Shown piece after piece: positions 12,384 to 51,565 of a stretch of 51,565 bases of DNA. This DNA comes from Muribaculaceae bacterium. GTDB taxonomy: Bacteria; Bacteroidota; Bacteroidia; Bacteroidales; Muribaculaceae. The notes beneath the pieces are model-generated. The model had not been told where the DNA came from. It saw only the letters and a program-made list of their open reading frames with translations, and did no database searches. The position numbers were made by a program, and so were the translations under genes. The stretch lies in the NCBI GenBank assembly GCA_017935045.1, contig JAGBIJ010000033.1, positions 1 to 51,565 on the forward strand, written 5' to 3'. How positions within the stretch are numbered: the stretch's first letter is position 1; each line of letters opens with the position of its first letter.

Positions 12384-14125
12384 AGTCCTTTCAGGTTCTC
12401 GATGGCAGCTTCATCGCCGGCCGCGGCTGCTATCTTCCACAGGCGCTTTGCCTCGGCTATGTCTTGCTTGACCCCCAATCCGTTGTAGTACAGATATGCG
12501 AGATTGCTCGTAGCGTCCGGATCTCCCTGATCGGCGCTCAGTTTGTACCACTTAGCTGCGTCCTCATACGACTGCGGAACTCCTGTGCCATCCTGATAGC
12601 ATAGCCCTAACTGAAACTGTCCGAGAGGATTATCCTGCTCGGCGCTTTTGCGGAACCAGGTTACAGCCTCATCGTGTGACTGCGGTACGCCCTGACCGTT
12701 GAAATAGCACAGACCGAGATTGAACTGGGCGTCGCTATTGCCCTGCTCCGCGAGCTCGGCGAACATTGCGGCAGCCTGCTCATACTTGCCGTTTTCATAT
12801 AGACTGATAGCTTCGTCTATGTCAGCGGACGTAGCCTCGCTGCTGCTATTGCCGGAGCTTTCAGAAAGTGTGGTTTCCTCTGTGTCATCGGCGTTTGAGT
12901 CCGAAGCCGAGCTTATGGCGAAGATGATGCCTATGACGACGACGATGGCAACCAGGCCGATAATCAGCGCTTTGACTATGGGGAAATGCTTTGCCGGCTT
13001 CGCTGCCGCCGGAATGTCGAGCATAATGGTAGAGCCAGACTGCATCGGTTGTTCCGATGCGGCCTGAGTTGTGATGACTGGCTGAGGCGGTGTCTGAGGC
13101 GGTGCGCCGGTTCCAGGCGTAGCAGGCAAAATACGTGTGGCGCCCGAATCCTCGTCCGCTGCGGTCACGGGTGGAGGCGGCAGCGGCTTATCGGTCTGTA
13201 TTCCGGCTGCGCCCTCCACTTCGCGCAGCAGCTGCATGGCTGCCTGAGTGCGCCGGGTCGTGTCCGGCTCCATGCCGTGGCAGATGGCCTGGACCAGGTC
13301 TTCAGACGCGAAGCGGGACAGCGGGGCCGCTACGGCGTCAATGCTGTGTATCTCGGTGGCTTTCTTGGGAGGCTCGCCGGTCAGACAGTTGTAGAGTGTG
13401 GCGGCCAGCGCGTAGATATCGGCGGTAGGGGAGTAGGAAGTGATACCGCCATATTGCTCTATGGGCGAGAAGCCGTTGGAGTAGCCTAAGGTGTTGATCG
13501 ACGAAGTAGGTGAGCCGCCTTCATCGTAATGCTTGGCGAGTCCGAAATCTATAAGAATAGGCCGGATGCCGTCGTCAGTCTTCTCAAGCATGATGTTGTC
13601 CGGCTTGATGTCGAGATGGGTAAGCCGCTCCTTGTGCAGCGCGCCGACAGCTGTGATGACCGGCGTCATCAGTTTCAGTGTCTCGTGGATGTCAAGGCGT
13701 CCCCGGGACTTGATGTAGTCGGCCAGCGACTGCCCTTCTACATACTGCATCACGTAGTATGCCGTATTGTTGGCCATGAATACCTCGTTGACCTTGACTA
13801 TGTTCTCGTGTATTTTGCCGAACGAAGCCAGTCTGGTCGCCTCGCTTATGAAGTCGCGCAGGCTGTTCTCCACTTTTCCTTGGGCCGTGGAGAGAAACCT
13901 GACTGCCGCGGTGTCGGACTCACGTTCGCTGACTTCGGAGAGAAAATGCTCTTTGACGGCGAAGTATGCCTTTACGCTGATGTTGCGCACCATGACGCTG
14001 GCCGACACGAGATAAGTAATGCCGAATCCTCCGGCTCCCAGTACCCGTTCTACTGTGTAAGTATTGAGATTGCTGCGCAAGACCGTGCCCGGTCTGAGAG
14101 TATGTCGTCTTATCTGTTCGTCCAT
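12380..14125 (-). CDS. Transmembrane Ser/Thr protein kinase with Sel1 repeats
   Basis: A 581-residue Hanks-type kinase. P-loop GAGGFG (30-35), Lys58 (FAVKEH), catalytic loop HLDIKPDN (170-177) and DFG at 193-195 are all present, so it should be active. The catalytic loop is HLD rather than HRD, so activation-loop phosphorylation may not be needed. A proline-rich linker follows, then one TM helix (about 384-404), then an extracytoplasmic acidic stretch and three Sel1/TPR-like repeats (about 463-575). The linker contains GATRIL and GSTIMLD, possible phospho-Thr docking sites. It is a paralog of the kinase at 45473-47053. Its promoter is at 14153-14183. Its stop codon overlaps that of the convergent radical SAM gene. 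Confidence 0.93.
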   Translation of the reverse strand: MDEQIRRHTLRPGTVLRSNLNTYTVERVLGAGGFGITYLVSASVMVRNISVKAYFAVKEHFLSEVSERESDTAAVRFLSTAQGKVENSLRDFISEATRLASFGKIHENIVKVNEVFMANNTAYYVMQYVEGQSLADYIKSRGRLDIHETLKLMTPVITAVGALHKERLTHLDIKPDNIMLEKTDDGIRPILIDFGLAKHYDEGGSPTSSINTLGYSNGFSPIEQYGGITSYSPTADIYALAATLYNCLTGEPPKKATEIHSIDAVAAPLSRFASEDLVQAICHGMEPDTTRRTQAAMQLLREVEGAAGIQTDKPLPPPPVTAADEDSGATRILPATPGTGAPPQTPPQPVITTQAASEQPMQSGSTIMLDIPAAAKPAKHFPIVKALIIGLVAIVVVIGIIFAISSASDSNADDTEETTLSESSGNSSSEATSADIDEAISLYENGKYEQAAAMFAELAEQGNSDAQFNLGLCYFNGQGVPQSHDEAVTWFRKSAEQDNPLGQFQLGLCYQDGTGVPQSYEDAAKWYKLSADQGDPDATSNLAYLYYNGLGVKQDIAEAKRLWKIAAAAGDEAAIENLKGL

Positions 14126-29824: not shown

Positions 29825-29828
29825 CTTC

Positions 29829-29860: not shown

Positions 29861-29884
29861 ATAATGGCAGTCTGACTGATGCAG

Positions 29885-29920
29885 CAAGCCCCGGCAGATG
29901 TGGTGCATTGCCGGGGCTTG
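29885..29920. terminator. Strong hairpin after the Sel1 gene
   Basis: CAAGCCCCGGCA pairs perfectly with TGCCGGGGCTTG over a 12-nt loop. It lies 20 nt after the stop of the Sel1 gene on the minus strand; no T run on either side. Confidence 0.55.
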
Positions 29921-29939
29921 GTGCGGAATATTACAGGAA

Positions 29940-31559
29940 TCAGAGTAGTTTCAGCAGGTCTGTTTCTGTGGTTTTGCGCTTGTCGGCAGCTATCTTTTTG
30001 GCCTTCTCTTTGTCGGCGGGGACTCCGCCCATGCCCTGGTCGAGTATGGAGGCGTAGTGGCGGCGCGTCTCTTTGTCGATGGGAGTCTGTGCGAACGCGG
30101 CGTCATAGAAGCTGAGTGCGGTAGCATAATCCTGAGGAAGCAGACGTCCTTCGAAGTACAACTCCGCCATAAGCAGCTGAGCCTGGCAGTTGCCGGCGGT
30201 AGCCGCTTTCCCTATCAGCTGCAGAGCCTCGGCAAGCAGTTTGTCGCGGTTTTTGGCGTAAGCGGAGTCATCTACACGCTTCAGGTAGAGATTGCCCAGA
30301 GCGTACTCGGCATTGGGATCCCCCTTCTTGGCAGCTTCCTTCAGCGCTTTTTCTCCTTTTTTCTCATCGGTCACACTCAGTCCGGGAGTGCAGTAGATGA
30401 TGCCTTCCAGGGTTTTGGCCTGTACCTTGTCGGTCTTGGCCAGCACCTTACACTGGTCGAGGGCTGCCACGCCGTCCTTGGCATTGAGGGCCTTCATGGC
30501 ACGCAGATAGGTCACGTAGCCGGATTCAGGTATGCTGTCGTTGATTATGTTTTTGAATGTTCGGCTCAATTTGTTGTCTACGGCACGCGCGAACCATACG
30601 GATGCGGCCGGGTAGTTGGGCGTCAGACCGTCGCCTTCTGCCAGCGCGCGGGCGTAGGCTACCTGGGCGCGGGGAGAGTTGGCTGCCGCTGCCAGACCGT
30701 AATATTTCACTGCCTGGGCGCGGTCGCGGACTACGCCGTCGCCGTTATTGTAGCAGTTGCCCAGCGCGTTGAGGGCAGCTGCATTGCCGTCGTCGGCGGC
30801 ACGCTGCAGATACGTGATGCCGCGGTCTTTGTCCTTAGCGGTGCCTTTGCCCTCAAGGCAAGCTATGCCCAGATAGTAGTTGGCGGCCGGGTTGCCCTGC
30901 TTCGCGCTAAGCTGGAACCACTTGACGGCTTCCTTGTTCATCTTAGGGTTCTTGAGCCCCAGCTGCAGACAGTCGGTGCCCAGCAGGCACTGCGTCTCGG
31001 CGTCTGCCTTGTCGGCTATGCGGCTCATAGCTTCCACGGCCTTGGCTGCATCCTTCTGTACGCCGATACCGTTCTTGTAGACCTGATAAATGAGGCGGCA
31101 GCTAAGCGGGTCGGCTTCTTCCGCCATTTTCTCGCGTTTGGCAAGCAGAGCCTTGTTGCCGAGCTTGATGGATTTGACCATATATTTGCGGGCGCGGTCT
31201 TCGTCTTTCTCCACCCCTTTGCCGTCGGCATACAGCACACCGATGTTGCCTATGGCCACCGGCTCGTCTTTCTCAGCGGCTTTGCGCCACCAGTACATGG
31301 CTTTCTTATAGTCCTGATCCACGTGTTGGCCGCGGTAATACCAGTTGCCCACTATGGTCTGAGTCTTGGCATCCCCCTCCTCGGCCTTCTTGAGCATAAG
31401 GTTCAGGCTGTCGACTACAGCGTCTTTGCCGCTCTTTTTTACCGTAGTGGTCTTTGTCGTTTTCGGTGTCTTGGCTGATTTCCCGCTTTTTTGTGCGGAC
31501 AACGCGCAGGGGGCGGCGAGTGCAAGCGCGAGGCAGCCTATTGCAAATATCTTTTTCAT
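29940..31559 (-). CDS. Secreted Sel1-repeat protein
   Basis: A 539-residue exported protein with a signal peptide (MKKIFAIGCLALALAAPCALSA) and then a Lys/Thr-rich linker. From about 50 to 520 it is a chain of Sel1/TPR-like helical pairs (GNWYYRGQHVDQDYKKAMYW, GVLYADGKGVEKDEDRA, GIACLEGKGTAKDKDRG, GNCYNNGDGVVRDRAQA and more), about ten in all. Sel1 arrays are protein-binding scaffolds in envelope signalling. The gene starts 52 nt after the acidic PEP-repeat gene on the same strand and probably shares its promoter. The Sel1 repeats recall those outside the membrane in the kinase at 12380-14125, so a link between them is possible. Confidence 0.85.
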   Translation of the reverse strand: MKKIFAIGCLALALAAPCALSAQKSGKSAKTPKTTKTTTVKKSGKDAVVDSLNLMLKKAEEGDAKTQTIVGNWYYRGQHVDQDYKKAMYWWRKAAEKDEPVAIGNIGVLYADGKGVEKDEDRARKYMVKSIKLGNKALLAKREKMAEEADPLSCRLIYQVYKNGIGVQKDAAKAVEAMSRIADKADAETQCLLGTDCLQLGLKNPKMNKEAVKWFQLSAKQGNPAANYYLGIACLEGKGTAKDKDRGITYLQRAADDGNAAALNALGNCYNNGDGVVRDRAQAVKYYGLAAAANSPRAQVAYARALAEGDGLTPNYPAASVWFARAVDNKLSRTFKNIINDSIPESGYVTYLRAMKALNAKDGVAALDQCKVLAKTDKVQAKTLEGIIYCTPGLSVTDEKKGEKALKEAAKKGDPNAEYALGNLYLKRVDDSAYAKNRDKLLAEALQLIGKAATAGNCQAQLLMAELYFEGRLLPQDYATALSFYDAAFAQTPIDKETRRHYASILDQGMGGVPADKEKAKKIAADKRKTTETDLLKLL

Positions 31560-31611
31560 CTTGTCAATGATATGATTAGTCTATAAATACTCTGGAGAAT
31601 CGATGAGGATA

Positions 31612-32124
31612 TCAGTCCATTATGTCGTCAAGTAAGTCTTCGGGTTGATCATCATTCCACGGTTCTTCCCATGGTTCCCCTATCGGTCCGCCGTACATAC
31701 ACGGTTCGGGCTCAGGCTCAGGCTCAGGTTCGGGTTCCGGCTCGGGCTCAGGTTCGGGTTCGGGCTCCGGTTCGGGTATGGGTTGCGGTTCGGGTTCGGG
31801 TTCCGGCTCCGGGATGGGTTCCGGCTCCGGCTCTACGATAGGTTCATCATCAGGGTCGGTGGGAATATATTTGTCGTCGATGGTGCCGTCGAGTCTTACA
31901 GTCGCAGGATCCACGGGTTCCTCGACTACCGTTATTTCCTCTTCTGTTTCCGCAGGTTCTATATGAGTCTCCTCTTCTGCCGGAGCCTTGTCGCTCTCCG
32001 GGTCCTGGACTTTATCCTCGCTCTCGGAAGAGTTCAGGCTGTTCATCGTAAACGAAGTGGCTGTCGCGCCTGTGGCGGCTGCTACGCCTATTCCGGCTAC
32101 TTTCTTGGCTGTGTCCTTTTTCAT
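31612..32124 (-). CDS. Acidic protein with PEP repeats and a DDIM end
   Basis: A 170-residue protein, no family recognised. A short Ala/Gly-rich hydrophobic stretch (about 8-27, [18 protein letters not shown]) may be a membrane anchor or uncleaved signal. Then a Glu/Asp-rich disordered region follows, and a long Pro-Glu repeat at about 98-141. The end is EDLLDDIMD. The acidic gene at 48569-49408 has the same plan: lysines, an Ala/Gly-rich stretch, a disordered acidic body and the end DFTDDIMA. The shared ends suggest one family. It has its own promoter (32211-32241) and is followed by the Sel1 gene. The Pro-Glu repeat is coded by GGCTCA/GGTTCG-like hexamers and may vary in copy number. Confidence 0.72.
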
Positions 32125-32210
32125 AATTGTATCGGGTATTGGTTTATTTCGTTTTGATTGCTGAGTCAGACTGAATATGTTTCGATACCAACTGTCTGAC
32201 GTTCACAATG

Positions 32211-32241
32211 CAAAGTTAAGTCATAATCCGGCGTGTTCCAA
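32211..32241 (-). promoter_or_regulatory. Promoter of the acidic-Sel1 unit
   Basis: Minus strand TTG (32241-32239), 20-bp spacer, TAACTTTG (32218-32211). Confidence 0.7.
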
Positions 32242-32335
32242 ATATTTTTCAGCTTTTTGGACGAAATGCCATGTTTGTTGTGTCAACCGCCCCGTTGACG
32301 TGACAGCCGGGTCTTGGCCCGGCCCGGCTATAGCA

Positions 32336-41445: not shown

Positions 41446-41931
41446 TTAAGGCCGGGCAACCTTCAAGTCGTATGTGTTGCCCGGCTTTACTGCATCTATG
41501 CCGTAGTCGCGGAAGCTGACCCAAAGCGGGTCGGCTCCGTCCGGAAAATTTATGTTCAGGAAGTCTGAGCCGCCCACAAGGTAGACGAAGTAGACTCCAT
41601 CGGTATGTTCTACGTCGCCTACCACCTCCCCGTCAAGCAGTACATCGTCCTGGTCAAGCCACAGACGCACCAGAGCGCAGGGCTGTCCGTTCAGGTCAAG
41701 GCGCGAGTATTCCTCCATCATGGCGGTCAGATCGCCGCGCGACAGACTCATCTCGACGGCCGGAGTCACTGTTGCCGCAGTGTCGGCAGGCAATGTTCCG
41801 GACACCTGGGAGAGGGTCGGCACGGTATCTGCAGGCGCAGCGCCCCCCGGAGCTTCCGGAACAGTGGCGTGCATAGCGGGGGCGCAGCTTAATCCTATTG
41901 CTGTCAGCAATATGTGCAGTTTATTGGCCAT
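41446..41931 (-). CDS. Exported protein of unknown function, last gene of the cluster
   Basis: A 161-residue protein with a signal peptide (MANKLHILLTAIGLSCAPAMHA) and no recognised family. A Pro/Ala/Thr linker (about 24-58) leads to a small beta domain of ~100 residues (LVRLWLDQDDVLLDGEVVG, YFVYLVGGSDFLNINFPDGADPLWVSFRDYG). Its start overlaps the end of the preceding NTF2-like gene by 11 nt, indicating coupled translation. The last codons form part of a strong hairpin (41451-41485). It is the last of nine genes in the presumed kinase/phosphatase unit, so it probably works in the envelope with the other exported proteins. Confidence 0.75.
   Translation of the reverse strand: MANKLHILLTAIGLSCAPAMHATVPEAPGGAAPADTVPTLSQVSGTLPADTAATVTPAVEMSLSRGDLTAMMEEYSRLDLNGQPCALVRLWLDQDDVLLDGEVVGDVEHTDGVYFVYLVGGSDFLNINFPDGADPLWVSFRDYGIDAVKPGNTYDLKVARP
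41451..41485. terminator. Hairpin inside the last codons of the cluster
   Basis: GCCGGGCAAC (41451-41460) pairs perfectly with GTTGCCCGGC (41476-41485). It is part of the C-terminal coding sequence of the last cluster gene and also faces the convergent RPG gene (stop at 41407), so it may end both transcripts. Confidence 0.5.
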
Positions 41932-42907
41932 TGCGCGAGAGGAAGAAGTGGGAGAGTGTGAATACGTCGCTCTTGCCGCCTACTATCTCGTCAGGCTGCC
42001 AGGTGCGTACGTGGATTTTCGGCTCCGTAGGATTGGCGAAGTCCCATACCAGAAACAGCCATCCGTCGTCTTCATATTTGTCTGTTTTCCAGGTCTGATG
42101 CAGAGTCACGCCGTAGATTTCCGGATGGGAACCGCTGCGCACTATCGTGATATTGTCGAAGCCCACCTCCATCTTGCGTGTGTTGCGGAAGATGGTTTTC
42201 AGCTTGGCCACGTACTGTTCGCGGTTTTGCTCGTTGTATTTCACATCCTTGCGCAGTCTCCAGCCTCCGTCCTTAGAGCGTTCTTTGCGCGTAATCACGC
42301 TCCCTGTGATGATGAGGGCGTCCTGAGAGAAAATATCGTATATGGCCTGCGTGTTCTTTTCCTCGTAGAAGCAGCGGAAGTCTTCGACGAATTTGAGTAT
42401 CTCGTATCGCTGCGCTGCGTCGGTGACACCCACTCCGCCCGACATAATGCTGCGTGCGCTATGCTGGGTCTCGAGGGCGGGGCGCACGCCGTTGATGCAG
42501 CCGCTTTTGTCGAAGGATATGTTAAGCTCCCGTTGCAGCGACTGTTTGTAGAGGTCGTCGATGGGCTTTACGGTAATAGGTATGTCGCGCACCTGATAGC
42601 CCTGCGTGTCGCTGATGAGGCGCTGAACTTCCGTGTCGTTCTCCGGGACAAAGTGCCAGCTGCTCCAAAGCTGCCGGAGGCGGTTGGCCGCCTCGGGCTG
42701 TATCTTGATGCCGGATAGATTGAGGTCGCGGCAGGCGTTGCCGGCGTTGTTTATCTCAGTGAGCAGGGCGCTGGCGTTGCTCTCCATAGTGGCCTTCAGC
42801 GAAGCGGAAATGCCGGAGGTCGTACCGGGTTTGAACTTGAACGATACTACTGCCTGCGTCGGCACGAAGCTGAAAATGAGCGCGATGAGAAGCAGATATT
42901 TTTTCAT
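41921..42907 (-). CDS. Exported protein with C-terminal NTF2-like domain
   Basis: A 328-residue protein with a signal peptide (MKKYLLLIALIFSFVPTQA). Residues 20 to ~150 form a unique domain (LLTEINNAGNACRDLNLSGIKI, DIPITVKPIDDLYKQ). From ~165 on there is an NTF2/SnoaL-like fold: helix KFVEDFRCFYEEKNTQAIYDIFSQDALIITG, then strands ITIVRSGSHPEIYGVTLHQTW and DGWLFLVWDFANPTEPKIHVRTWQPD. The same domain makes up the 192-residue neighbour, and the two signal peptides are almost the same, so they arose by duplication. The NTF2 fold here more likely binds a ligand or partner than catalyses. It overlaps the upstream gene by 4 nt and the downstream gene by 11 nt. Confidence 0.8.
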   Translation of the reverse strand: MKKYLLLIALIFSFVPTQAVVSFKFKPGTTSGISASLKATMESNASALLTEINNAGNACRDLNLSGIKIQPEAANRLRQLWSSWHFVPENDTEVQRLISDTQGYQVRDIPITVKPIDDLYKQSLQRELNISFDKSGCINGVRPALETQHSARSIMSGGVGVTDAAQRYEILKFVEDFRCFYEEKNTQAIYDIFSQDALIITGSVITRKERSKDGGWRLRKDVKYNEQNREQYVAKLKTIFRNTRKMEVGFDNITIVRSGSHPEIYGVTLHQTWKTDKYEDDGWLFLVWDFANPTEPKIHVRTWQPDEIVGGKSDVFTLSHFFLSRNGQ

Positions 42908-43482
42908 GGTAGAGGAATTTTGCTTGATCGGGTGGGGGTATAGAAGTCGGAGAGAGTTATTATCTGGCTGTCGCCAATTATGTCAGGCTGCCATGTGCGC
43001 GTCATAATCTGGGGGCGCTCAGGGTCGGTGAAGTCCCAGACAAAGAACATCCATCCTTCGTCTTTGTACGAACTGGCCTCAACTGTCAGATGGACTGTGG
43101 CTCCGTAAATCGCAGGATGTGAGCCGCTGCGTGTGATGGAATAAAGTTTACTCACCACAGATACCTGCCAGCTTTGTTTGAACCACCTGCTTAAATAGTC
43201 AAGGAGTATCGCGCGATCGCGGGGGTCAATCTTTTTGCCACTGCGCGGCAGCAATGCGCAGTCGCTCTGTTTGCGTATCAACTGACCGTCGGTCACAATC
43301 AGAATGTCATCGGAGAAAATGGCCGAAATGCTCTGCATGTCTTTTTTTTCAAAATAGCCCGGCATGCTGTCTACGAAAGACTTAATTGCAAGCCGATTCG
43401 CCATGTCTTTTGCGGAAGGGTCGGCTGCCTGAGAGGGCACGAAGCAGAAAAAGAGTGCGATGAGAAGTAGATATTTTTTCAT
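42904..43482 (-). CDS. Exported NTF2-like protein, paralog of its neighbour
   Basis: A 192-residue protein with a signal peptide (MKKYLLLIALFFCFVPSQA) and a single NTF2/SnoaL-like domain (KSFVDSMPGYFEKKDMQSISAIFSDDILIVTD, LYSITRSGSHPAIYGATVHLTVE, DEGWMFFVWDFTDPERPQIMTRTWQPD). The strand order and the RSGSHP-x-IYG and F-VWDF-x-P motifs are shared with the C-terminal half of the 328-residue neighbour. Overlap with that gene is 4 nt (ATGA). The upstream PKPTP gene ends 21 nt before it. The function is unknown; the place in the cluster points to an envelope sensor or effector role. Confidence 0.8.
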   Translation of the reverse strand: MKKYLLLIALFFCFVPSQAADPSAKDMANRLAIKSFVDSMPGYFEKKDMQSISAIFSDDILIVTDGQLIRKQSDCALLPRSGKKIDPRDRAILLDYLSRWFKQSWQVSVVSKLYSITRSGSHPAIYGATVHLTVEASSYKDEGWMFFVWDFTDPERPQIMTRTWQPDIIGDSQIITLSDFYTPTRSSKIPLP

Positions 43483-43502
43483 TGAACGGGATTTTAATCA
43501 GA

Positions 43503-44330
43503 TTATTTGCTGAGGCGGTACCATGTCAGGGCATGGGTGCCGATGTAGTTGGTCTCGGAGTCGGGCTGCCCTGTGGCCAGATTGATGCGCCGGGGGCAGT
43601 TGCGCGGCGTGATGACGCCCTTGAAGGCACCGTTGCGGTCCACAGGGCTGATATATGCGTCGTCGGGTATTCCTTCGCCGGTGGCTATGTCCGCCACGCC
43701 GTGGTCTGTCACGGTGCCATCCTTCAGGTAGGTGTCTATCAGATGGGTAAAGTCAGCGTAAGTCTGCACGGTGGCTATGTAGCTGGCTACGGAAGATATG
43801 CCGCTCACAGTGACCGAGGTAGCTGTCGGCGCGGGCTTAGGTGTCGGCTTGGGAGTGGGCGTAGGTTTAGGTGTGGGCGTAGGCTTCGGAGTCGGTTTAG
43901 GTGTGGGCTTCGGCGCAGATGAGCCTGAGTCGGGGGTATCGGTGCGTCGCACAGTCACGTGGCTGCCGGAGCCGCCGTCGGGCACGTAGCGGGTAGCTTC
44001 GCCTAAGGACAGAGCCTGGTCAGTCTGTATGTAGAGGAAGACGACCGGCGTCTCGCCGCGCATATAGTCAAGGCGGCTTGCGGCGGACGCCAGGCTCTCC
44101 AGACTGACAAAGCCTTTGCCGGAGCCGGCGCGCACCTCGTTGACGTATTCGGCCAGGGAGGCCAGAGCCTCCTGATAAGCCTCGTCGGCTGTAGCTCCTT
44201 TCTTCTCTTCCCAGAGTATGGAGTCGTCGGTGCGCAGTTCGCGTGCCTTTTCGCGGGCGGCCTCGTCGGCGCAGAGGGGGAAGGGCAGCAGGGCTGTCAG
44301 CAGAGTCACTATAATCAATGCGGCTCTCAT
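43503..44330 (-). CDS. Exported protein with a PKPTP linker
   Basis: A 275-residue protein with a signal peptide ([21 protein letters not shown]). An N-terminal helical region ([37 protein letters not shown]) is followed by a KPTP repeat linker (about 139-168) and a C-terminal domain with [23 protein letters not shown] and [16 protein letters not shown]. The middle segment has [24 protein letters not shown] recognise no family. The linker may cross the peptidoglycan. Its start overlaps the end of the 375-residue gene by 4 nt. Confidence 0.75.
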
Positions 44331-45454
44331 TTCTTCAGGTTAAGCTTGTAGGACGGCATTGTTTTGTTACGCTTGCCCTCGTCTTCCTCGAAGATGTTGC
44401 CGAGATTGTTGGAGGGAACAAAGAGGCTTGTGCGCGCTACGACCGGCTCGTTGCCTGCAAGCGCCTCCGGGGTGGCCGTCAGGCGCAGCACATGGTCGTA
44501 GCCCTGCCATGCGTTGTGCATGAAGACGGCAGCGCTAAGCCGGTCGCCGTCCAGCGATTCGGTGCCGAAGTAGGGCACGCAGCCCTGCGACAGACAGTAT
44601 TCCAGAAATTTGCCGATGGTGGTGCTGACGGTCTGCGTCTTACCGTAGTCGTGAACCATGATATTGAGCTGTAGCTCGGGATCTACATCCGTGACGCCGG
44701 CCACGAAGAGGTTGGCCATAGCTTCGGCGAGATACAGGGAGTCGTCCTTGCCGAGAAGCTCGGCTTTATTGTCAGACCCGGGCTTGAGGTAGAGGTTGCG
44801 GTTGATGTCGGGCAGCACATGGTTGTCGCCCGGCAGCACGAATACGCCCGGCACGAAGAGCTGGAGCTGGCTGATGTCGAGGTCGGCCATGTCGGCTTTG
44901 CGGGGAGCGGCGACCGCCTTCAGGCCGGCAATGAATTTCTGCTCAGTGGCGCCGCGATCTGCTCCGGCTATGCTCTGGTAGCTCGCCGGGAAGGAGATGG
45001 CTACCGGCCCGTATTTCTCAGGTGTCCAGCGGAATGTGATGGTGCGAGAGTTGTCGTTGCCCATACCGAGCGGAGTATCTGGCGTGATGGCGGCTATCTG
45101 GTCGGGGCCGGCGTTGGAATATGACACTGACGCGTAGCGCGGCTGACGCAGTGACATAGCCCTGTCAAGCAGCGCGCCCTCGGCAAAAAGCAGGCTCTGG
45201 GGGTCGCAGGCGTTGCCGGAGTAGAGGGCTGCGGGGAAGACGGCCAGACCTACGTTGCTTATGGCGCCGGCTGCACGCACAATGTGCAGGGATTTGCCGC
45301 CTATATTTATTATGGTGTCGCAGTCGGTCGGGAGTGTCTCGACGGCAATGCCGCATTTCTCGGCCAGGGCGTCGGGGGTAAGGTTGACCTGAGCCGAAGC
45401 CGCCGGGGCGCAGACAGCCGCAAGGAGCGCGGGCAGAAATATCTTGAGTTTCAT
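44327..45454 (-). CDS. Exported protein of unknown function next to the kinase
   Basis: A 375-residue protein with a signal peptide (MKLKIFLPALLAAVCAPAASA). The rest is a mixed alpha/beta protein without a recognised family (INIGGKSLHIVRAAGAISNVGLAVFP, RTITFRWTPEKYGPVAISFPASY, QLQLFVPGVFVLPGDNHVLPDINRNLYL, LQLNIMVHDYGKTQTVSTTIGKFLEYCLSQGCVPYF). It starts 18 nt after the kinase stop, and the next gene overlaps it by 4 nt. Since the kinase has an extracytoplasmic MORN part, this protein may bind there; that is inference from position only. Confidence 0.75.
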   Translation of the reverse strand: MKLKIFLPALLAAVCAPAASAQVNLTPDALAEKCGIAVETLPTDCDTIINIGGKSLHIVRAAGAISNVGLAVFPAALYSGNACDPQSLLFAEGALLDRAMSLRQPRYASVSYSNAGPDQIAAITPDTPLGMGNDNSRTITFRWTPEKYGPVAISFPASYQSIAGADRGATEQKFIAGLKAVAAPRKADMADLDISQLQLFVPGVFVLPGDNHVLPDINRNLYLKPGSDNKAELLGKDDSLYLAEAMANLFVAGVTDVDPELQLNIMVHDYGKTQTVSTTIGKFLEYCLSQGCVPYFGTESLDGDRLSAAVFMHNAWQGYDHVLRLTATPEALAGNEPVVARTSLFVPSNNLGNIFEEDEGKRNKTMPSYKLNLKK

Positions 45455-45472
45455 GTCAGTTTCGTTTTTGGG

Positions 45473-47053
45473 TTAGTGGCCTACGGCAGTGCCGGAGGCA
45501 TCGTAGATGGTGCCGTAAAGGAAATTGCCGTTGCTGAACTCGCCTACAGCCTTGTATCCCGGTTGAATCTGTACGCCGTGGAGCGTAGTGGATTTGTTGA
45601 AAACCATAGTGCCGGATCCATTCGGCAGGTTGTTGGAGATTTCGCCGGAGTACGAATTGCCGTTGTGGCTCATCGAGCCTTTGCGTGATGAAGGCGCCGG
45701 AGCCGGTTTATCCTCCTTTACTACAGGGTCCGGGGTGGGATTGGGCTTTACCTTGTCAGTATTGGTCTTTTCGATTTTTTCTTTTTCTGAGGTCGTTTGT
45801 TCCTCCGGTTTGTCCTTAGCCGATTCTTTGGGCGAGTCGGAAGGTGGCAGCTCGACAGCGGGCGTGTCAGCTACGATGGGGGCGACATTTGTGTCGGCGA
45901 CGGAGTCGGCGGCAGGCACGGGAGCGGGCTTGCCGGAGCAATTCTTCATGCCGAAAATCACTCCTGCGGCCATTATGCCGCCGGCTACAGCGGCTCCGGC
46001 TATCCAGAGCCAGCGGGAGGCCGGCTTTTTCGGGCCGTCGCCGCCAGTATCGGGATTTTTAGTTTTTTTCGTTATTACCACTGTGGTCACACTGCCCGAT
46101 GTCGGGGTAGTGGTCAGTTCATGTACGAAAGTATCTATGTCCGGAGTGCGGTCGTCGGCGCTGTGAGCCATAGCGTGGATGATGGCGTCGGTCATGCGTG
46201 CCGGAGTCTTGGCACTCTCCATGGCAGCGCGCAGTTTGGCGGCGCTTACGCCCGTCAGCGCCGGCGGGGGCACCGTGCCTGTCAGCATATTGTAGAGTGT
46301 GGCGGCCAGGGCGTAGATGTCGGCCTTGGGCGAGAATTTCTCAATGCCGGCGTACTGCTCGGTAGGGGAGTAGCCATCCGAGGCTCCGTAGATGCCTATC
46401 TCACGCGTCTTGTTGCCGTGACGGTCATAATGCACGCTGAGTCCGAAGTCAATAAGGATAGGGGTGTAGGTGTCGCGCTGTCCCTTGACCGGGCGCAGCA
46501 TTATGTTGTCCGGCTTGATGTCCAGATGATTGACATTCTTCTTGTGCAGCAACCCTATGGCGCTGAGTACCGGCAGCATGATCTGCAGCGCCTGCTCGGG
46601 GTCGAGTCCCTTGGGGGCATCAGACGTTTTCTGGTTGTCTATATACTCTTTTAACGTGAATCCGTCGATATGCTCCATCACATAGTAGCAGGTGCCGTTG
46701 TAGCTGAACACCTCATTGACGCTCACTATGTTCTCGCTGAGTTTGCCTAACTTGTTGAGCCTTTCGGCCTCTGCCTTGAAGTTGCTCAGCGAGCCGGCAA
46801 ACGCGTCTTCCTGACCCGCTTCGGGCTTCACGGCCTCGCCGTCGCGCGACGATATATTGCCGGGGTAATGCTCCTTTATGGCAAAAAGGGTTTCGGCATC
46901 GATGTTGCCTACCTTAATGCGGGCCGAGGCCAGATACGTAATGCCGAAGCCGCCGCTGCCGAGAGTCTTCTTGATAACGTATTCGTGTTTCGGACTTTTC
47001 AGTACAGCGCCGGAGGCGAGGGGAAGGGCTTTGGAGTTGTTGCCGGATTCCAT
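45473..47053 (-). CDS. Transmembrane Ser/Thr protein kinase with MORN-like repeats
   Basis: A 526-residue Hanks-type kinase. P-loop GSGGFG (32-37), Lys60 (FAIKEHY), catalytic loop HLDIKPDN (176-183) and DFG (202-204, IDFGLSVHYD) are present, so it should phosphorylate Ser/Thr. As in its paralog at 12380-14125, the loop is HLD, not HRD. Near the membrane there is SVTTVVITKK (about 331-340), a possible phospho-Thr site. One TM helix (about 348-368) is followed by an extracytoplasmic Pro/Glu/Lys-rich stalk and MORN-like repeats at the end (SYSGEISNNLPNGSGTMVF, GEFSNGNFLYGTIYD). The PP2C gene is 15 nt upstream in the same unit, a writer-eraser pair. Confidence 0.94.
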   Translation of the reverse strand: MESGNNSKALPLASGAVLKSPKHEYVIKKTLGSGGFGITYLASARIKVGNIDAETLFAIKEHYPGNISSRDGEAVKPEAGQEDAFAGSLSNFKAEAERLNKLGKLSENIVSVNEVFSYNGTCYYVMEHIDGFTLKEYIDNQKTSDAPKGLDPEQALQIMLPVLSAIGLLHKKNVNHLDIKPDNIMLRPVKGQRDTYTPILIDFGLSVHYDRHGNKTREIGIYGASDGYSPTEQYAGIEKFSPKADIYALAATLYNMLTGTVPPPALTGVSAAKLRAAMESAKTPARMTDAIIHAMAHSADDRTPDIDTFVHELTTTPTSGSVTTVVITKKTKNPDTGGDGPKKPASRWLWIAGAAVAGGIMAAGVIFGMKNCSGKPAPVPAADSVADTNVAPIVADTPAVELPPSDSPKESAKDKPEEQTTSEKEKIEKTNTDKVKPNPTPDPVVKEDKPAPAPSSRKGSMSHNGNSYSGEISNNLPNGSGTMVFNKSTTLHGVQIQPGYKAVGEFSNGNFLYGTIYDASGTAVGH

Positions 47054-47068
47054 ATATGATATAGACTG

Positions 47069-47971
47069 TTAGCTTTTGAAGATGTTGGATATTCGTGAAA
47101 AAAGGGATTGTCTCTGCCGCACCTGCGCAGGGCTTATTTCTTCGGCGCGAGGCATCGGTATGTCGAGCAGGCGGGTGGGGCCGGCGCAGGCGTCGTCGCT
47201 CTCGCGGTCTGCGACTCCCGATACCTGGCCTATCTTGACCAATATGGCGGTCGAATTGTCAGATGAACGGGTGCAGGCTTTGCCCAATCGTTCCATCATT
47301 ACCTCTATAGTACGCGGCGATTCAAACATTTCTGCCAGGCCGGTGTCGGAAATGCAATGCAGCACACCGTCGGAGCAAAGGAAGAACAGGTCGCCGTCGG
47401 CCACGTCGATAGCGGTCACGACTGTAGCGTCACATCGGTTGGCAGCGCCGGGACTCATGCAGCGTGTTATGACGTTGGAACGCGGGTGGTCCACTCCTTG
47501 TTCCGGCGAGATATTGCCGGTGTGTACCAATGAGTTGACCAGCGAATGATCATCGCTTCGATACATGAATCCGGCTCCGGGACGATAGTGGTACACCCGG
47601 CTGTCGCCTATGTGAGCCATCATTGCGCCGTCTGCTCCGAGGTGCAGGAAAGCGAGAGTCGTGCCCATGTTCGTCGAACCGATATCATCAGCAGTACGGT
47701 CAAGGGCGGCATAGCCCTTGCCGAGCTGGATTCCCAGTTCGGCTGTGCCGAAGCTGCTGTCGGAGCCGTACTGACGCATGGAGGAGCCGATGGTCTCGGC
47801 CACGGCTGAACTCGCCGCCTCGCCATGTTCGGCTCCGCCCACTCCGTCGCAGACTATGAAAGTGGACTCCGACGGGGCGATGCTGTCGGAGTCAGGCCAG
47901 CGGTTGTCCTCCTGATACGGGCGTTGGCCCTGCACGCGGAACGAAGCGGCGCCTTTTACGGTTATCCTCAT
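47069..47971 (-). CDS. PP2C-type Ser/Thr protein phosphatase
   Basis: A 300-residue metal-dependent phosphatase that should reverse the neighbouring kinase. All PP2C motifs are visible: QEDN (20-23), VCDGVGG (40-46), MGTT (102-105), HIGDSRVY (120-127), CSDGV (199-203) and SSDNSTAILV (236-245). A short tail (250-300) contains GPTRLLDIP (about T266), similar to motifs in the kinases, and a basic amphipathic end (SLFSRISNIFKS) that may touch the membrane. It overlaps the upstream FHA gene by 4 nt and the kinase starts 15 nt downstream. No signal peptide or TM, so cytoplasmic. Confidence 0.95.
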   Translation of the reverse strand: MRITVKGAASFRVQGQRPYQEDNRWPDSDSIAPSESTFIVCDGVGGAEHGEAASSAVAETIGSSMRQYGSDSSFGTAELGIQLGKGYAALDRTADDIGSTNMGTTLAFLHLGADGAMMAHIGDSRVYHYRPGAGFMYRSDDHSLVNSLVHTGNISPEQGVDHPRSNVITRCMSPGAANRCDATVVTAIDVADGDLFFLCSDGVLHCISDTGLAEMFESPRTIEVMMERLGKACTRSSDNSTAILVKIGQVSGVADRESDDACAGPTRLLDIPMPRAEEISPAQVRQRQSLFSRISNIFKS

Positions 47972-48564
47972 TTTGTTTCTCTTTTAAGGAATTGGAGGCG
48001 GGTTTTGCCAAGGATAATCTCATCGCCGAAATTCAGATAAATCTGTGAGCCGGCGGCATAGGAATTGTTGTTGACAAGTACAGGATTGGTGCATTTCAGC
48101 ACTTTAAGCAAGAACTTGAGGACGCCCGGCGCCGGCTCCAGGACCTGGATGTCTATGGATCGGCGCGACATGGAGGAATCTCCCTTGATAGCTATGTCGC
48201 AGGGAGCCGAGGGGTCGGCGCGGCCTATGATGTTGTCGCCTCGGCGAAGCTGGAAGTCCTGGCTGCGCCACATGGGGCGGACATGCTTCAGATATCCCAT
48301 GTGGGGTTGCAGCTCAGAGGAGTCATCGCGGTCAACGATTTTTGTCTTCTTGGAGGTCTGCTCCTGTTGTTGGGCGGTGTCCTGTGGGGTCGGGGAGCCG
48401 GCCTGCCGGCCGGAGGCGGGCAGATCGGGTACGCGAACCTTGAATTTATGGGCGCAGTGCGGACAGGTCACGGTGTACACCCCGGCTTTACCGGGGTGTC
48501 GCATGCGGAACGGCTTGCCGCACTCGGCGTTGGAACACTTATATGCCAGAGTTGCTTCCGCCAT
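47968..48564 (-). CDS. Zinc-ribbon plus FHA-domain protein
   Basis: A 198-residue cytoplasmic protein. The N-terminal zinc ribbon has C10, C15, C34 and C37 (MJ0042-like, YTVTCPHCAHKFKV). A polar linker with SKKTKIVDRDD (T74) follows. The C-terminal FHA domain (about 100-195) has IIGR (112-115), SMSRRS (131-136), NNN (165-167) and a final strand GKTRLQFLK. FHA domains bind phospho-Thr peptides. The usual SRRH reads SRRS here, so the phosphate pocket may be altered. The gene lies 4 nt after the acidic poly-Thr gene and overlaps the PP2C gene by 4 nt, placing a reader between a likely substrate and the eraser. Confidence 0.88.
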   Translation of the reverse strand: MAEATLAYKCSNAECGKPFRMRHPGKAGVYTVTCPHCAHKFKVRVPDLPASGRQAGSPTPQDTAQQQEQTSKKTKIVDRDDSSELQPHMGYLKHVRPMWRSQDFQLRRGDNIIGRADPSAPCDIAIKGDSSMSRRSIDIQVLEPAPGVLKFLLKVLKCTNPVLVNNNSYAAGSQIYLNFGDEIILGKTRLQFLKRETK

Positions 48565-48568
48565 GGTG

Positions 48569-49408
48569 TCAAGCCATTATGTCATCAGTGAAATCCTCTC
48601 CGGTCACGGTGTCGACATTATCGTCATTGTTGGCCAGATAATCGTGGTTGTCCTCGTTGACATTGTATTCTACGTCGCTCATAGCGATGTCGAAGCCGTC
48701 AGGCAGCTCCACGGTCTCCATATTGCCCTCGTCGTCTGTGATGAGCTGTCCGTCGATCATGCCGTCAGCGTCTACATCCACCAATGCGAAGGGAGTTCCG
48801 TCCGGCATGTGGCCCAGAGCCACGTCAGCTTCCGAGCCGTCTACATTGTAGACTGTCGTGACGCCGTCATACTCCATCATTGTAGGTTCCATGATGTCGT
48901 TGGGATCCAGCTCGTCTTCGGCCAGAATCGGGTCTTCGGCTTCATCGGGATCCACGTTCATATCGTCATACTTGGTCAGGTCTTCCACTTCGGTTTCCTC
49001 GTCCTTGTTGTCATCATCATCATCGGTCGGCTTATTGTCCGGAGTGTCGTCGCGCTTCACGTCTATGATGTCGTCCTCGTCCTCAGTGGGGGTGGTAGTC
49101 GTTGTAGTAGTGGTATGGTGGTCGGGAGTCTCTTTGGGCTCGTCGGCGGTCTTGGGAGAGATATGCTTCTCCTGCTCGGCGGGAGTATTCTCCTTGTCCT
49201 GGTCTTCAGCGACCTCGGGCTTTACCTCCTCGGCCTCTTTGGTTTCTTCGGCATGCGCGTTGAAAGCATATCCGCCGGCTACGCCTGCGGCAGCGGCGGC
49301 TACGCCTACACCTGCGGCGGCCAATCCGGCTTTGCTCGATTTCTTGTTGTCAGCGGGATTATTGTTGCTGTTCGGGGTAGGGATGTTGTTCAGATTCTTT
49401 GTTTCCAT
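48569..49408 (-). CDS. Acidic poly-threonine protein, likely kinase substrate
   Basis: A 279-residue protein, no family recognised. A Lys/Ser start and an Ala/Gly-rich hydrophobic stretch (27-49) could anchor it in the membrane. Then a very acidic disordered region contains a run of eight threonines (about 99-106) followed by TPTEDEDD. A DVDADGMID loop (211-219) resembles an EF-hand or dockerin calcium site. The end is EDFTDDIMA, matching the end EDLLDDIMD of the acidic protein at 31612-32124. Threonines beside acidic residues are typical phospho-sites for FHA binding, and the reader, eraser and kinase genes follow directly. It is the first gene of the nine-gene unit (promoter 49435-49465). 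Confidence 0.78.
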   Translation of the reverse strand: METKNLNNIPTPNSNNNPADNKKSSKAGLAAAGVGVAAAAAGVAGGYAFNAHAEETKEAEEVKPEVAEDQDKENTPAEQEKHISPKTADEPKETPDHHTTTTTTTTPTEDEDDIIDVKRDDTPDNKPTDDDDDNKDEETEVEDLTKYDDMNVDPDEAEDPILAEDELDPNDIMEPTMMEYDGVTTVYNVDGSEADVALGHMPDGTPFALVDVDADGMIDGQLITDDEGNMETVELPDGFDIAMSDVEYNVNEDNHDYLANNDDNVDTVTGEDFTDDIMA

Positions 49409-49434
49409 GAGATGAAGTTTTAATGATTATGATG

Positions 49435-49465
49435 CAAAATTACATCGTCCGGAGCCGTCGTGCAA
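49435..49465 (-). promoter_or_regulatory. Promoter of the kinase/phosphatase unit
   Basis: Minus strand TTG (49465-49463), 20-bp spacer, TAATTTTG (49442-49435), about 27 nt before the ATG at 49408. It splits the cluster into two transcription units. Confidence 0.7.
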
Positions 49466-49548
49466 ATTTTTCGGACGCTCTTGTACGGAGGGGAGGGATT
49501 TATGGACGAAACGCGCCGTTTGGCTGTCGGGTCCCTCCGCCGGCGGTA

Positions 49549-50274
49549 TCATTTATACTTCATCAGCACTCTGTTGTGCTGCGTCTTGGGTGCGATGAGC
49601 TGCGGATGCTGCGCCTCGTCGGGCTTCACGTTTTTACCCTTGCGGTTTACGACATCGTTGTAAGCGTATTTGAACAGCTCCAGGACAGTCACCTGCTTGT
49701 CGGCGTTGAAGTCAGCTTTGCCGCGCAGCCCCTTGAGTACGGCCAGCGTGAAGTAAGAGTTGTCGGCCACGGCGCCCTGCCACGAATACTCGTCGGCGCG
49801 GGAAGCCACCATCCATACCTGATTGTTTCGGTTGGAGATGCCGGCGTCTTTGGCCGATCCGGAGTGGCATGCCTCGATGACCACGAACTTCAGGTTTGCT
49901 TTCGATTTGTCGAGCTGATCGGCTATCTCCTTGTATTTGAGGAAGCCGTCGAAAGTCAGCAGACCGCCCGTGTCGCCGTGGCCGTTGAAGTACATGACGA
50001 TACGGTCCTCCTTCTGGGCGCGGTTGCAGATGGCCGAGAGCTTCTGCATGATGTTGGCTGTGGTTGCGTTGGCCGAGGTCAGTGTGGTCACGTCCTTGGT
50101 CTGCTGGAGCATTGCGTCGCGGAAGCGCAGGGCGCCTTTGGAACTCATGGGCAGATTGTTGACCGATGGGTTGGCGTAATTGCTTATGCCTATGCTGAGT
50201 ACGAATGTTCTGGCCTCTGCGATGCCGGCCAGGCAGCATACTGCGAGCAGCAGTGATAGTATTCTCTTCTTCAT
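49549..50274 (-). CDS. Exported caspase-fold (C14-like) protease
   Basis: A 241-residue protein with a signal peptide (MKKRILSLLLAVCCLAGIAEA) directly followed by the first caspase strand (RTFVLSIGISNYANP). The catalytic dyad is present: H99 in YFNGHGD and C136 in VIEACHSGS. Later strands (VWMVASRADEYSW, FTLAVLKGLRGKADFNADKQVTVLELFKYAYNDV) complete a p20-like fold without a separate p10 or effector domain. Caspase-like proteases of bacteria cut after Arg/Lys or Asp. Export would put it in the periplasm, unusual for cell-death type enzymes of antiphage systems, and more in line with envelope proteolysis or regulated self-injury. It is the third gene of the LytTR-FHA-caspase unit. Confidence 0.9.
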   Translation of the reverse strand: MKKRILSLLLAVCCLAGIAEARTFVLSIGISNYANPSVNNLPMSSKGALRFRDAMLQQTKDVTTLTSANATTANIMQKLSAICNRAQKEDRIVMYFNGHGDTGGLLTFDGFLKYKEIADQLDKSKANLKFVVIEACHSGSAKDAGISNRNNQVWMVASRADEYSWQGAVADNSYFTLAVLKGLRGKADFNADKQVTVLELFKYAYNDVVNRKGKNVKPDEAQHPQLIAPKTQHNRVLMKYK

Positions 50275-50310
50275 GTCGGTATATAATTTTTGTTTTTATT
50301 CAGATTTATG

Positions 50311-50964
50311 TTATTTTGCCTTGCAGGCCGAGCAGCGCAGGTTCTCCACATCGTGCTGGCTGATGGGGCGCCCGCAGTTGGGGCAGACCTGGAATTTGGT
50401 GATTTTCTGCTGCAGGTCGCGTGCTTCCTGCGTCTTCGGCCCCCACAGCGTATTGCTCAACACGCCTATAAGACCCGGGAAAATCATCGGCGACATGGCC
50501 ATAAGGCTGGCGCCGCTGATGGCTCCGACCACTACTATGCCTACGCTGATGGCATAGGAGACCAGTCTTATCTTGTTGGCCAGTTTACTGCGTTTCTGGT
50601 TATTTTCATTCAGATTCTCCATCTCCTGGCGCAGTCCGCGTATACGGCGGCGCAGGTGTCTGAACTCGTAGGAATAGTCTCCCTGCGGGGCTATGGCGCG
50701 GTGGGCCATAAAGGTGCATGACATGTATCCGGTCGGACCCAGGCGCAGCACGCTGTCTTCGGTTATGCGCTGGGCTTCGATGGGATGGAAATCGCCCTGT
50801 TCGTCACGTATGTACAGTCCGTTGCCGTTGACTGTCGTGAGATTCTCTATCCACCAGTTCTGATTGTCATCGATCGTGAGGAGAGCGTGCTTGCGGCTTA
50901 CTCCCTCCTGTGTGATGGGGAACGGCTGATTGCCTTCTCTGCCTATGATTACTTCCTGTTTCAT
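50311..50964 (-). CDS. FHA / two-TM / zinc-ribbon protein
   Basis: A 217-residue membrane protein. The N-terminal FHA domain (1-90) has IIGRE (6-10), GVSRKHALL (21-29) and NGNGL (46-50), all canonical for phospho-Thr binding. A basic helix (about 101-127) is followed by two TM helices (about 133-170, VSYAISVGIVVVGAI and SPMIFPGLIGVL). The C-terminal zinc ribbon has C194, C197, C211 and C214. Both ends would be in the cytoplasm. It would bring phosphorylated proteins to the membrane. It overlaps the LytTR gene by 4 nt (ATGA), and the caspase gene starts 36 nt downstream. Confidence 0.88.
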   Translation of the reverse strand: MKQEVIIGREGNQPFPITQEGVSRKHALLTIDDNQNWWIENLTTVNGNGLYIRDEQGDFHPIEAQRITEDSVLRLGPTGYMSCTFMAHRAIAPQGDYSYEFRHLRRRIRGLRQEMENLNENNQKRSKLANKIRLVSYAISVGIVVVGAISGASLMAMSPMIFPGLIGVLSNTLWGPKTQEARDLQQKITKFQVCPNCGRPISQHDVENLRCSACKAK

Positions 50965-51338
50965 GATTGCTCTTTCGGCGCGTTGATGTTGTATATGATT
51001 GCCTTATATTGCCTGAGCAGCTGCTTGGACACTGACAGCGGATGGTTGTGGCCCTCGCAGTCCGAGAGCAGCAGCCGCTGTCGCAGTACGCTGATTTCCG
51101 TGACGTAGCGCTGGTTTACAATCAGGCTTCGGCCCAGACGCACGAAAGGCGAGGGCTCGTTGAGCTTCCATGACAGGCGTATGTATTCCTCGATTTTACT
51201 AAGCCCGAGAGCCACCAGATGCTTCTCCCCGCAGATGTAGACAAACTGAGTGTAGTTGCCGTTGGCCTGGAAATAGGCCACTTTTGAGAGATGGATCATC
51301 AGCAGCTCGTCACGCGTATTCAGACATAAATTAGGCAT
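50961..51338 (-). CDS. Stand-alone LytTR DNA-binding protein
   Basis: A 125-residue regulator made of one LytTR domain and no receiver (MPNLCLNTRDELLMIHLSKVAYFQANGNYTQFVY, EPSPFVRLGRSLIVNQRYV, QRLLLSDCEGHNHPLSVSKQLL). The start at 51338 is chosen because a longer frame to 51368 would begin inside the -7 box (51366-51373). Without a receiver it may respond through a partner; the gene overlaps the FHA/TM gene by 4 nt. It is first in the cluster and probably controls one or both units. Confidence 0.88.
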   Translation of the reverse strand: MPNLCLNTRDELLMIHLSKVAYFQANGNYTQFVYICGEKHLVALGLSKIEEYIRLSWKLNEPSPFVRLGRSLIVNQRYVTEISVLRQRLLLSDCEGHNHPLSVSKQLLRQYKAIIYNINAPKEQS

Positions 51339-51365: not shown

Positions 51366-51396
51366 CAAATTTAATACTTAATCGCCGCTGTCACAA
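51366..51396 (-). promoter_or_regulatory. Promoter of the LytTR-FHA-caspase unit
   Basis: Minus strand TTG (51396-51394), 20-bp spacer, TAAATTTG (51373-51366), giving a short leader of about 25 nt. The last ~170 bases of the window are AT-rich and hold no recognisable gene. Confidence 0.7.
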
Positions 51397-51565
51397 ATTT
51401 TTTACGTTAAAAAAGCGATGTTGTCCACGGCTCTTTCATTTAAAAAAGTCTTGTGCTTCCGAAAAGCCTGTTATTTTATAGCGGGGGAAGTCTGAATGGG
51501 AAAAGGTAATTTTTCGCATTCATTTCTCTGATTTTCAATAAAATAAGTGGTATAAAAATTTGGTC

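Follow-up and report, generated by a model that had tools for sequence, protein, structure and literature searches.

A recurrent LytTR–FHA–caspase–PP2C–kinase gene cluster of Bacteroidia as a candidate modular phospho-threonine signalling system

The DNA analysed here, referred to as the window, is the whole of contig JAGBIJ010000033.1 (C46; assembly GCA_017935045.1), 51,565 nt of the 2.2-Mb draft genome of a Muribaculaceae bacterium. According to the list of open reading frames (ORFs) of the window, its minus strand carries twelve ORFs between positions 41446 and 51338, which an earlier note, made before any database search, had described as one twelve-gene phospho-threonine cluster joined to a LytTR regulator, an exported caspase and envelope proteins. 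The genes, with the family names used below and two promoter-like sites, are as follows.

51366..51397, minus: P1, promoter-like site TTTG-N20-TAAATTTG upstream of the LytTR gene
50961..51338, minus: LYT, LytTR DNA-binding protein of 125 amino acids, by Pfam a LytTR domain alone without receiver domain (3.8e-9, 37.1 bits); the start codon, ATG at 51338, follows P1 closely
50311..50964, minus: FHA1, FHA domain (Pfam, 1.8e-8), two hydrophobic segments (by eye) and a C-terminal four-Cys ribbon (alignment A1)
49549..50274, minus: CASP, caspase (C14; Pfam, 2.1e-13, 50.9 bits) with a signal-peptide-like start, His99/Cys136 and an EF-hand-like loop at 188-199
49435..49466, minus: P2, promoter-like site TTTG-N20-TAATTTTG in the 140-nt gap between CASP and ACID
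48569..49408, minus: ACID, short basic N-terminus, hydrophobic segment and acidic tail with a DxDxDxxxD loop
47968..48564, minus: FHA2, zinc-ribbon-like Cys pairs and an FHA domain (Pfam, 1.3e-5)
47069..47971, minus: PP2C, PP2C phosphatase (Pfam PP2C_2, 1.1e-10, 41.9 bits)
45473..47053, minus: KIN, Hanks-type kinase (Pfam Pkinase, 4.2e-25, 89.1 bits) with a hydrophobic segment and a MORN-like tail
44327..45454, minus: E8, signal-peptide-like start, part of the kinase cassette
43503..44330, minus: E9, signal-peptide-like start and Pro/Lys/Thr repeats, part of the kinase cassette
42904..43482, minus: E10, NTF2-like protein, paralogous to E11 in the latter's C-terminal half (alignment A5)
41921..42907, minus: E11, C-terminal NTF2-like domain (weak Pfam match)
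41446..41931, minus: E12, signal-peptide-like start, no Pfam match, profile matches in relatives

The matches to LytTR, FHA (35.2 bits for FHA1 and 26.0 bits for FHA2), Peptidase_C14, PP2C_2 and Pkinase all lie above the Pfam cut-offs, in agreement with the twelve same-strand genes with named domains that had been described. The reported 4-nt overlaps are also present, at four joints (LytTR/FHA1, FHA2/PP2C, E8/E9 and E10/E11), with an overlap of 11 nt at E11/E12. The zinc-ribbon and MORN calls stand only in part: the four Cys of FHA1 are invariant across the eight relatives aligned in A1, but the Pfam matches to the ribbons of FHA1 and FHA2 are sub-threshold, and MORN in the KIN tail scores 17.6 bits, under its cut-off of 22.5. 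In the Pfam scan of window proteins, E8–E12 matched no family above cut-off. Export of CASP and E8–E12 was read by eye from their signal-peptide-like starts and is predicted only.

Seven matches to TTTG-N18-22-TAnnTTTG, which we take to be the Bacteroides promoter form, occur in the window against 0.42 expected, and two of them fall where the space upstream of a cluster gene is widest, ahead of LytTR and between CASP and ACID. Among the upstream regions of 69 LYT genes (window included), 31 have the −7 element TAnnTTTGY at most 120 nt from the LytTR start (shuffled controls: mean 3.0, maximum 8 of 50), and only seven have the full pattern. The two promoter-like sites suggest that the cluster is probably transcribed as two units, LytTR-FHA1-CASP and ACID-FHA2-PP2C-KIN-E8-E12.

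Scattering of the genes in related genomes, which the earlier note had named as fatal to its reading, was not seen; core parts recur together in different genera and in several families of Bacteroidales. Searches of the family with the kinase (149 genomes) and with caspase (A2) and FHA1 (A1) profiles yielded 72 regions, many of which, when compared with profiles made from the window genes, showed all or part of the order LYT-FHA1-CASP-ACID-FHA2-PP2C-KIN. In a genome scan with the caspase alone, the best 80 of at least 353 places span Muribaculaceae, Bacteroides (including B. caecigallinarum isolates), Prevotella, Butyricimonas, Paludibacteraceae, Dysgonomonadaceae and Lentimicrobiaceae, some of these loci lying on contigs also met in the family searches (L108 and L037, for instance). 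At least one of LYT, FHA1, FHA2 and PP2C is present in 77 of these 80 loci, the exceptions being L131, L142 and L170. Identical sequences were kept in the 80-locus counts, the gap counts and the residue compositions given below, and were removed from adjacency and caspase-flank counts. By the latter, 63 of 109 distinct caspase places have 4-kb flanks on both sides, and within these flanks 57 have at least one same-strand partner (LytTR, FHA1, FHA2 or PP2C), 55 at least two, 26 all four and six none. By comparison, none of LYT, FHA1, FHA2, PP2C and KIN was found in the stretches of 5–11 kb around 20 more distant caspases of the family (frames of 378–1307 amino acids).

A similar division was seen outside the family. 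The eight best out-of-family caspase places in 295 genomes of the order were examined, short frames at G172, G320 and G405 being left out; the five best (E ≤ 1e-55, short frames; L205-L209) adjoin FHA, PP2C or kinase genes, and the next three (L210-L212, frames of ∼560 amino acids) have no FHA, PP2C or kinase genes beside them. Outside the order but still in the class Bacteroidia, L218 and L219 hold FHA1, FHA2, PP2C, KIN and CASP, while the other 11 places of that survey (frames above 400 amino acids) had no FHA, PP2C or KIN nearby. Within the genus presence is patchy, with the caspase in 17 of 41 genomes, the window's own included. In one congener (G757), rpsA-SusD-SusC and the gene at 40088 are retained, with rpsA 93% identical, and no cluster gene was seen in the 19.5 kb examined, 1 kb of it beyond rpsA; the caspase of this genome lies on another contig.

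In the family, 19 genomes have FHA1 at E ≤ 1e-36, and every one of them also has CASP at E ≤ 1e-35. Among the 149 genomes, 32 have both KIN and CASP, seven CASP only, nine KIN only and 101 neither (p 8e-18 by Fisher's test, uncorrected for kinship). These distributions indicate that the cluster is widely conserved and no chance assembly, and conserved co-location across families supports the proposal of a dedicated phospho-threonine circuit that joins kinase, phosphatase, FHA readers, LytTR and caspase.

Certain neighbours are nearly constant. FHA1 comes next after LYT in 68 of 74 places and FHA2 lies directly upstream of PP2C in 74 of 78; PP2C is followed by a kinase in 32 of 67, and CASP by ACID in 31 of 96. 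Catalytic motifs are largely retained: DGxGG and GD[SC]R in 76 of 77 phosphatases and a third pattern (a later Asp-Gly) in 58 of 77, and, in 168 kinases, HxDxKxxN in 159, DFG in 157, GxG in 156 and the beta-3 Lys pattern in 136. The window phosphatase scores 131.6 bits with NCBIfam Stp1, under the cut-off of 230, and the PASTA-kinase (PknB/Stk1) model reaches 108.7 bits on KIN against a cut-off of 450, covering residues 90-329 only; the KIN tail is MORN-like and has no PASTA repeats.

A hydrophobic segment follows the kinase domain in 127 of 154 kinases. Beyond it the proteins diverge: the 108 tails of at least 60 amino acids fall into 39 groups, 27 of them single, and the tails scanned with Pfam as examples included Sel1, BspA-type LRR, TonB_C, FGE-sulfatase and WG, with MORN below cut-off. 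This variety of tails points to a kinase slot that is exchangeable.

The genes E8–E12 belong to a kinase lineage rather than to the core, as judged from the position of E8 and from the kinase tree. E8 lies after a kinase in 14 of 16 places. In 11 of the 16 it is near core genes and in five (L033, L034, L035, L052 and L057) apart from them, although in L034 and L052 the locus ends within 1.5 kb of E8; the genomes from which L033-L035 derive (G022, G148 and G081) have core genes on other contigs (L074, L053 and L043). On a FastTree tree built from 168 kinase domains, linkage to E8 (13 kinases) requires four changes, as compared with 12.7 in shuffles (0 of 500 as low), and 12 of the 13 fall in a clade of 20; L037 was scored ‘none’ for E8 although E8 lies downstream. 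The window kinase belongs to a clade of nine, all E8-linked, some of them beside the core and others apart from it. E12 profile matches follow E11 in L105 and L119 and lie elsewhere in the cluster in L125.

The caspase is also facultative: L213-L216, which are otherwise similar and have LYT, FHA1, FHA2, PP2C and KIN, have no caspase in the stretch. We therefore rejected the idea of one indivisible twelve-gene system, since E8–E12 move with the kinase lineage and similar clusters lack the caspase. The other outcome that would have counted against the earlier note's reading, two halves never conserved together, was not seen either: the halves are co-conserved in part. The twelve genes of the window are one instance of a wider core-plus-modules cluster, in which gene order and strand vary (L085, L086, L159 and L162). 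In L085, L086, L151 and L178, some of which are the same contig twice, LYT-FHA1 is on the strand opposite to CASP-FHA2.

The constant LytTR–FHA1 pair resembles the LytTR Regulatory Systems, in which a membrane protein keeps a receiver-less LytTR regulator inactive (PMC6193735). If the analogy holds, FHA1 would be a membrane partner of LytTR that is switched by phosphorylation. In a search for a LytTR box upstream of the 69 LYT genes, promoter-like −7 elements alone stood out. Upstream of the window LytTR there is a 9-bp repeat 33 bp apart, which is near chance, being one of two single matches from 25 spacings scanned.

The caspase assignment is supported by a predicted structure (AlphaFold pLDDT 93.8), for which Foldseek gave 3bij (GSU0716) as best match at 4.9e-12, with caspase-3/7 and metacaspases among the next. 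In the cluster set, the HG motif was found by pattern in 109 of 109 caspases and the Cys motif in 103 (H99 and C136 in the window). A loop of EF-hand pattern, D-x-N-x-D-x-x-I-T-x-x-E, is present in 106 of the 109 and in one of the 20 distant long caspases. It is also present in 12 of the 13 nearer caspases of the phylum survey, of which only the short ones of L218 and L219 are in a cluster; we therefore rejected the notion that the loop is an invention of the cluster system. Metacaspases have two acidic S1 residues for Arg or Lys at P1. At positions 47 and 134, which we take to be this S1 pair, Asp stands in 64 and 62, respectively, of the 66 caspases of alignment A4. That alignment holds 66 of 112 candidates and leaves out six with a failed Cys pattern (L078, L095, L096, L112, L115 and L128) and three without the loop (L098, L180 and L181), so its 66/66 for Cys and loop ends is a product of selection, the fair figures being the 103/109 and 106/109 given above. 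The caspase, the only protein searched against phage records, had no match there, and its eight matches in plasmid records are all below 30% identity; a mobile-element origin was rejected on these grounds, integrases not having been searched for.

The start of ACID is mostly basic, with a hydrophobic stretch nearby, and the median composition of its tail is 0.8% Lys plus Arg and 24% Asp plus Glu; seven other cluster families have 10.4–13.5% Lys plus Arg. Of 80 ACID proteins, 59 contain a DxDxDxxxD-like loop, and in L218 the acidic ORF consists of such loops in a row. Together with the EF-hand pattern of the caspase, these loops suggest a Ca2+ link in the periplasm. An acidic ORF also lies between FHA1 and FHA2 in L214-L216 and L218, and the ORFs of the caspase-less L214, L215 and L216 contain 0, 3.1 and 6.1% Lys plus Arg, respectively. 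The existence of such ORFs weakened a further idea, that Lys/Arg poverty shields ACID from an Arg/Lys-specific caspase. The acidic poly-Thr protein of the earlier note is present, but runs of at least five Thr occur in only one of 67 distinct ACID proteins, the window's own. Because the tract is private to the window copy and would lie outside the cytoplasm by layout, we rejected it as a conserved phospho-acceptor. Larger acidic proteins at L173 6125-9957, L208 2178-3152 and L216 8102-9226 share the segment MSFSEAFAAAR..GPGG..W.GN.Y.TY...EW; two of four such proteins were scanned and matched no Pfam family above cut-off.

With moderate confidence, we favour the view that the cluster encodes a modular system for phospho-threonine signalling, shared by Bacteroidales and some other Bacteroidia, with exchangeable kinases and an FHA1–LytTR output. 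Interchangeable transmembrane Hanks-type kinases (KIN with E8–E12; a second kinase, KIN2, elsewhere in the window) would use their extracytoplasmic tails and partner proteins to sense the envelope; the envelope sensing of the earlier note fits the layout to the extent that the topology, predicted by eye, is right. Active kinases would phosphorylate threonines on themselves or on partners, and FHA1, as a membrane protein with a cytoplasmic FHA domain, would read phospho-threonine and release or recruit LytTR, thereby changing transcription. FHA2 would be a soluble second reader, and PP2C would reset the circuit. The caspase would serve as an exported, facultative output arm cutting envelope proteins, probably with bound Ca2+, and the acidic membrane protein ACID as a likely periplasmic partner of the caspase or a Ca2+ buffer. 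A bolder version, which we put forward only tentatively and think rather doubtful, is a phospho-threonine-switched LytTR system in which FHA1 holds or frees LytTR depending on kinase activity, one set of readers serves many exchangeable sensor kinases, and the irreversible output comes from a periplasmic caspase that depends on Ca2+, the whole being a main envelope-signalling route of many gut Bacteroidales.

Several observations weigh against this modular signalling system as drawn. Direct repeats of the kind used for LytTR autoregulation in LytTR Regulatory Systems (at least 8 of 9 matches, 20–22-bp spacing) were found in 0 of 7 regions, these being the only ones of the 69 LytTR upstream regions with the full promoter pattern. 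A loose FHA pattern is met by only 73 of 92 FHA1 and 56 of 89 FHA2 proteins, so that some readers may be degenerate, or the pattern may be too strict. Six of the 63 well-flanked caspases lack a core partner within 4 kb, FHA1 occurs without CASP in clusters L213-L217, and of nine family genomes with weak FHA1 (1e-18 to 1e-8) only four have CASP at 1e-35. The link between ACID and the caspase is weak, since acidic ORFs poor in Lys and Arg also occur in caspase-less loci. The EF-hand loop appears to be a clade feature and no mark of the cluster system, because long caspases outside any cluster share it. The window caspase itself, with G47 and E134, is the sole row of the 66 changed at both positions, and may have a different specificity or be decaying. 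Among the distant-caspase controls, L186 adjoins E8- and E11-profile matches and L190 a Sel1 protein.

Threonine phosphorylation by a transmembrane kinase, with a PP2C phosphatase and an FHA reader, is known from the PpkA-PppA-Fha1 pathway of type VI secretion, and the cluster might likewise control the assembly or export of an envelope structure, LytTR being secondary. The same enzyme trio is present here with many exported-looking neighbours, and FHA1 and FHA2 match, below cut-off, Yop-YscD_cpl, an FHA-like family of type III secretion. Nevertheless, we judge this improbable: among the 18 window proteins searched no secretion-apparatus family, and no linked type VI structural gene, was found above cut-off (the rest of the genome was not searched), and the LytTR–FHA1 adjacency argues for transcription as the output. 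Alternatively, two or three neighbouring operons without a common pathway might be held together by linkage only. Such an arrangement would accommodate the two promoter-like sites, the modules that change order or strand (L085, L086, L159 and L162), the separable E8 cassette and the occurrence of FHA1 without CASP. We consider it very unlikely, since every family genome with strong FHA1 holds CASP and since in several families the same parts, though rearranged, are again found together.

Bacterial conflict systems, too, can contain kinase, FHA and caspase-type domains, as described in a survey (PMC7159879). In a conflict or programmed-death system the kinase would sense phage or envelope damage and the caspase would kill the cell; PADLOC kinase models (PD-T4-6 and mad6) and a caspase model match the domains, and the patchy presence within the genus would fit. 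The PADLOC matches are, however, domain-level and spread over many models, and a defence identity based on them was rejected. Moreover, the twelve proteins include no vWA, MoxR or GTPase family of conflict systems, the caspase has a signal-peptide-like start, caspase-less clusters exist, no phage copy of the caspase was found, and the nearest window neighbours of the cluster are SusC/D and rpsA. A conflict system is thus unlikely in our view, and the phage response that the earlier note had allowed for found nothing in its favour beyond those domain-level matches, the caspase being without a match in phage records.

Elsewhere in the window lie further, satellite genes of kinds that occur in such clusters.

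32211..32242, minus: promoter-like site TTTG-N20-TAACTTTG before ACID2
31612..32124, minus: ACID2, second acidic protein with the layout of ACID, not reached by the ACID profile
29940..31559, minus: SEL1, Sel1-repeat protein with a signal-peptide-like start (Pfam Sel1, 5.4e-40)
12380..14125, minus: KIN2, second kinase of the KIN family (47% identity over the kinase domain) with a Sel1 tail (Pfam)

ACID2 and SEL1 stand apart as a pair between rpsA and tRNA-Arg, preceded by a promoter-like site of their own (29751-32242). In relatives, Sel1 proteins are often inside the cluster, and ACID–SEL1 pairs adjoin the core in L039, L043 and L053. Directly upstream of KIN2 (14286-20480) are two large proteins of 1530 and 531 amino acids with signal-like starts and, by eye, sorting-like C-terminal ends. 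The same genome contains, at L038 (G000:C28) 3625-12294, a row encoding a zinc-ribbon protein, a 1036-amino acid kinase, a 1106-amino acid AAA ATPase-domain protein, FHA and PP2C, which is a different phospho-threonine cluster. Two adjacent, near-identical genes (515 and 512 amino acids), AAA-ATPase/nuclease-like by eye, lie inside a cluster at L206 6989-10071.

If the modular signalling system is as proposed, threonine phosphorylation in many gut Bacteroidales would be written, read and erased by a complete circuit that has a transcription factor of its own and includes an exported caspase, and it would be mainly the sensor that is exchanged between the circuits. A bacterial caspase would gain an upstream pathway, and the Hanks-type kinases of Bacteroidota a dedicated transcriptional output. 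In the literature searched, outside which lie most subscription papers and all preprints, we found no description of this gene set (caspase, FHA, LytTR, PP2C and kinase in Bacteroidota) and no paper naming LytTR, FHA and PP2C together; the cluster is apparently undescribed.

It nevertheless has likenesses to known systems. LytTR Regulatory Systems (HdrRM/BrsRM; PMC6193735) likewise pair a LytTR regulator that lacks a receiver domain with a membrane protein encoded after it; here the membrane partner is an FHA/zinc-ribbon protein with kinases and a phosphatase attached, and the cluster is not placed among them because their operon direct repeats were not found in the seven upstream regions that could be tested. 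Some of the vWA-MoxR and GTPase-centred conflict systems, as described in the survey cited above (PMC7159879), use kinase, FHA, PP2C and caspase-type domains in other contexts; the twelve proteins have no NTPase or vWA core, and include instead an exported-looking caspase and LytTR. Other contexts are likewise described in a metacaspase survey (PMC3501461). Bacterial metacaspases and orthocaspases of family C14 (GSU0716, 3bij) share with CASP the fold, the His/Cys dyad and, in most members, acidic residues at the presumed S1 positions; CASP differs as a short protein, a signal-like start and caspase domain alone, inside a phospho-threonine cluster. Kinase, PP2C and FHA occur together as in the PpkA-PppA-Fha1 pathway, here with LytTR, a caspase and exchangeable kinase tails. 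Finally, a Hanks-type kinase next to an Stp-like PP2C recalls the PknB/PrkC–Stp systems (as represented by the NCBIfam models), from which the present cluster is set apart by kinases free of PASTA domains, by dedicated readers and a regulator, and by the presence, often, of several kinases per genome (up to nine matches; two in the window genome).

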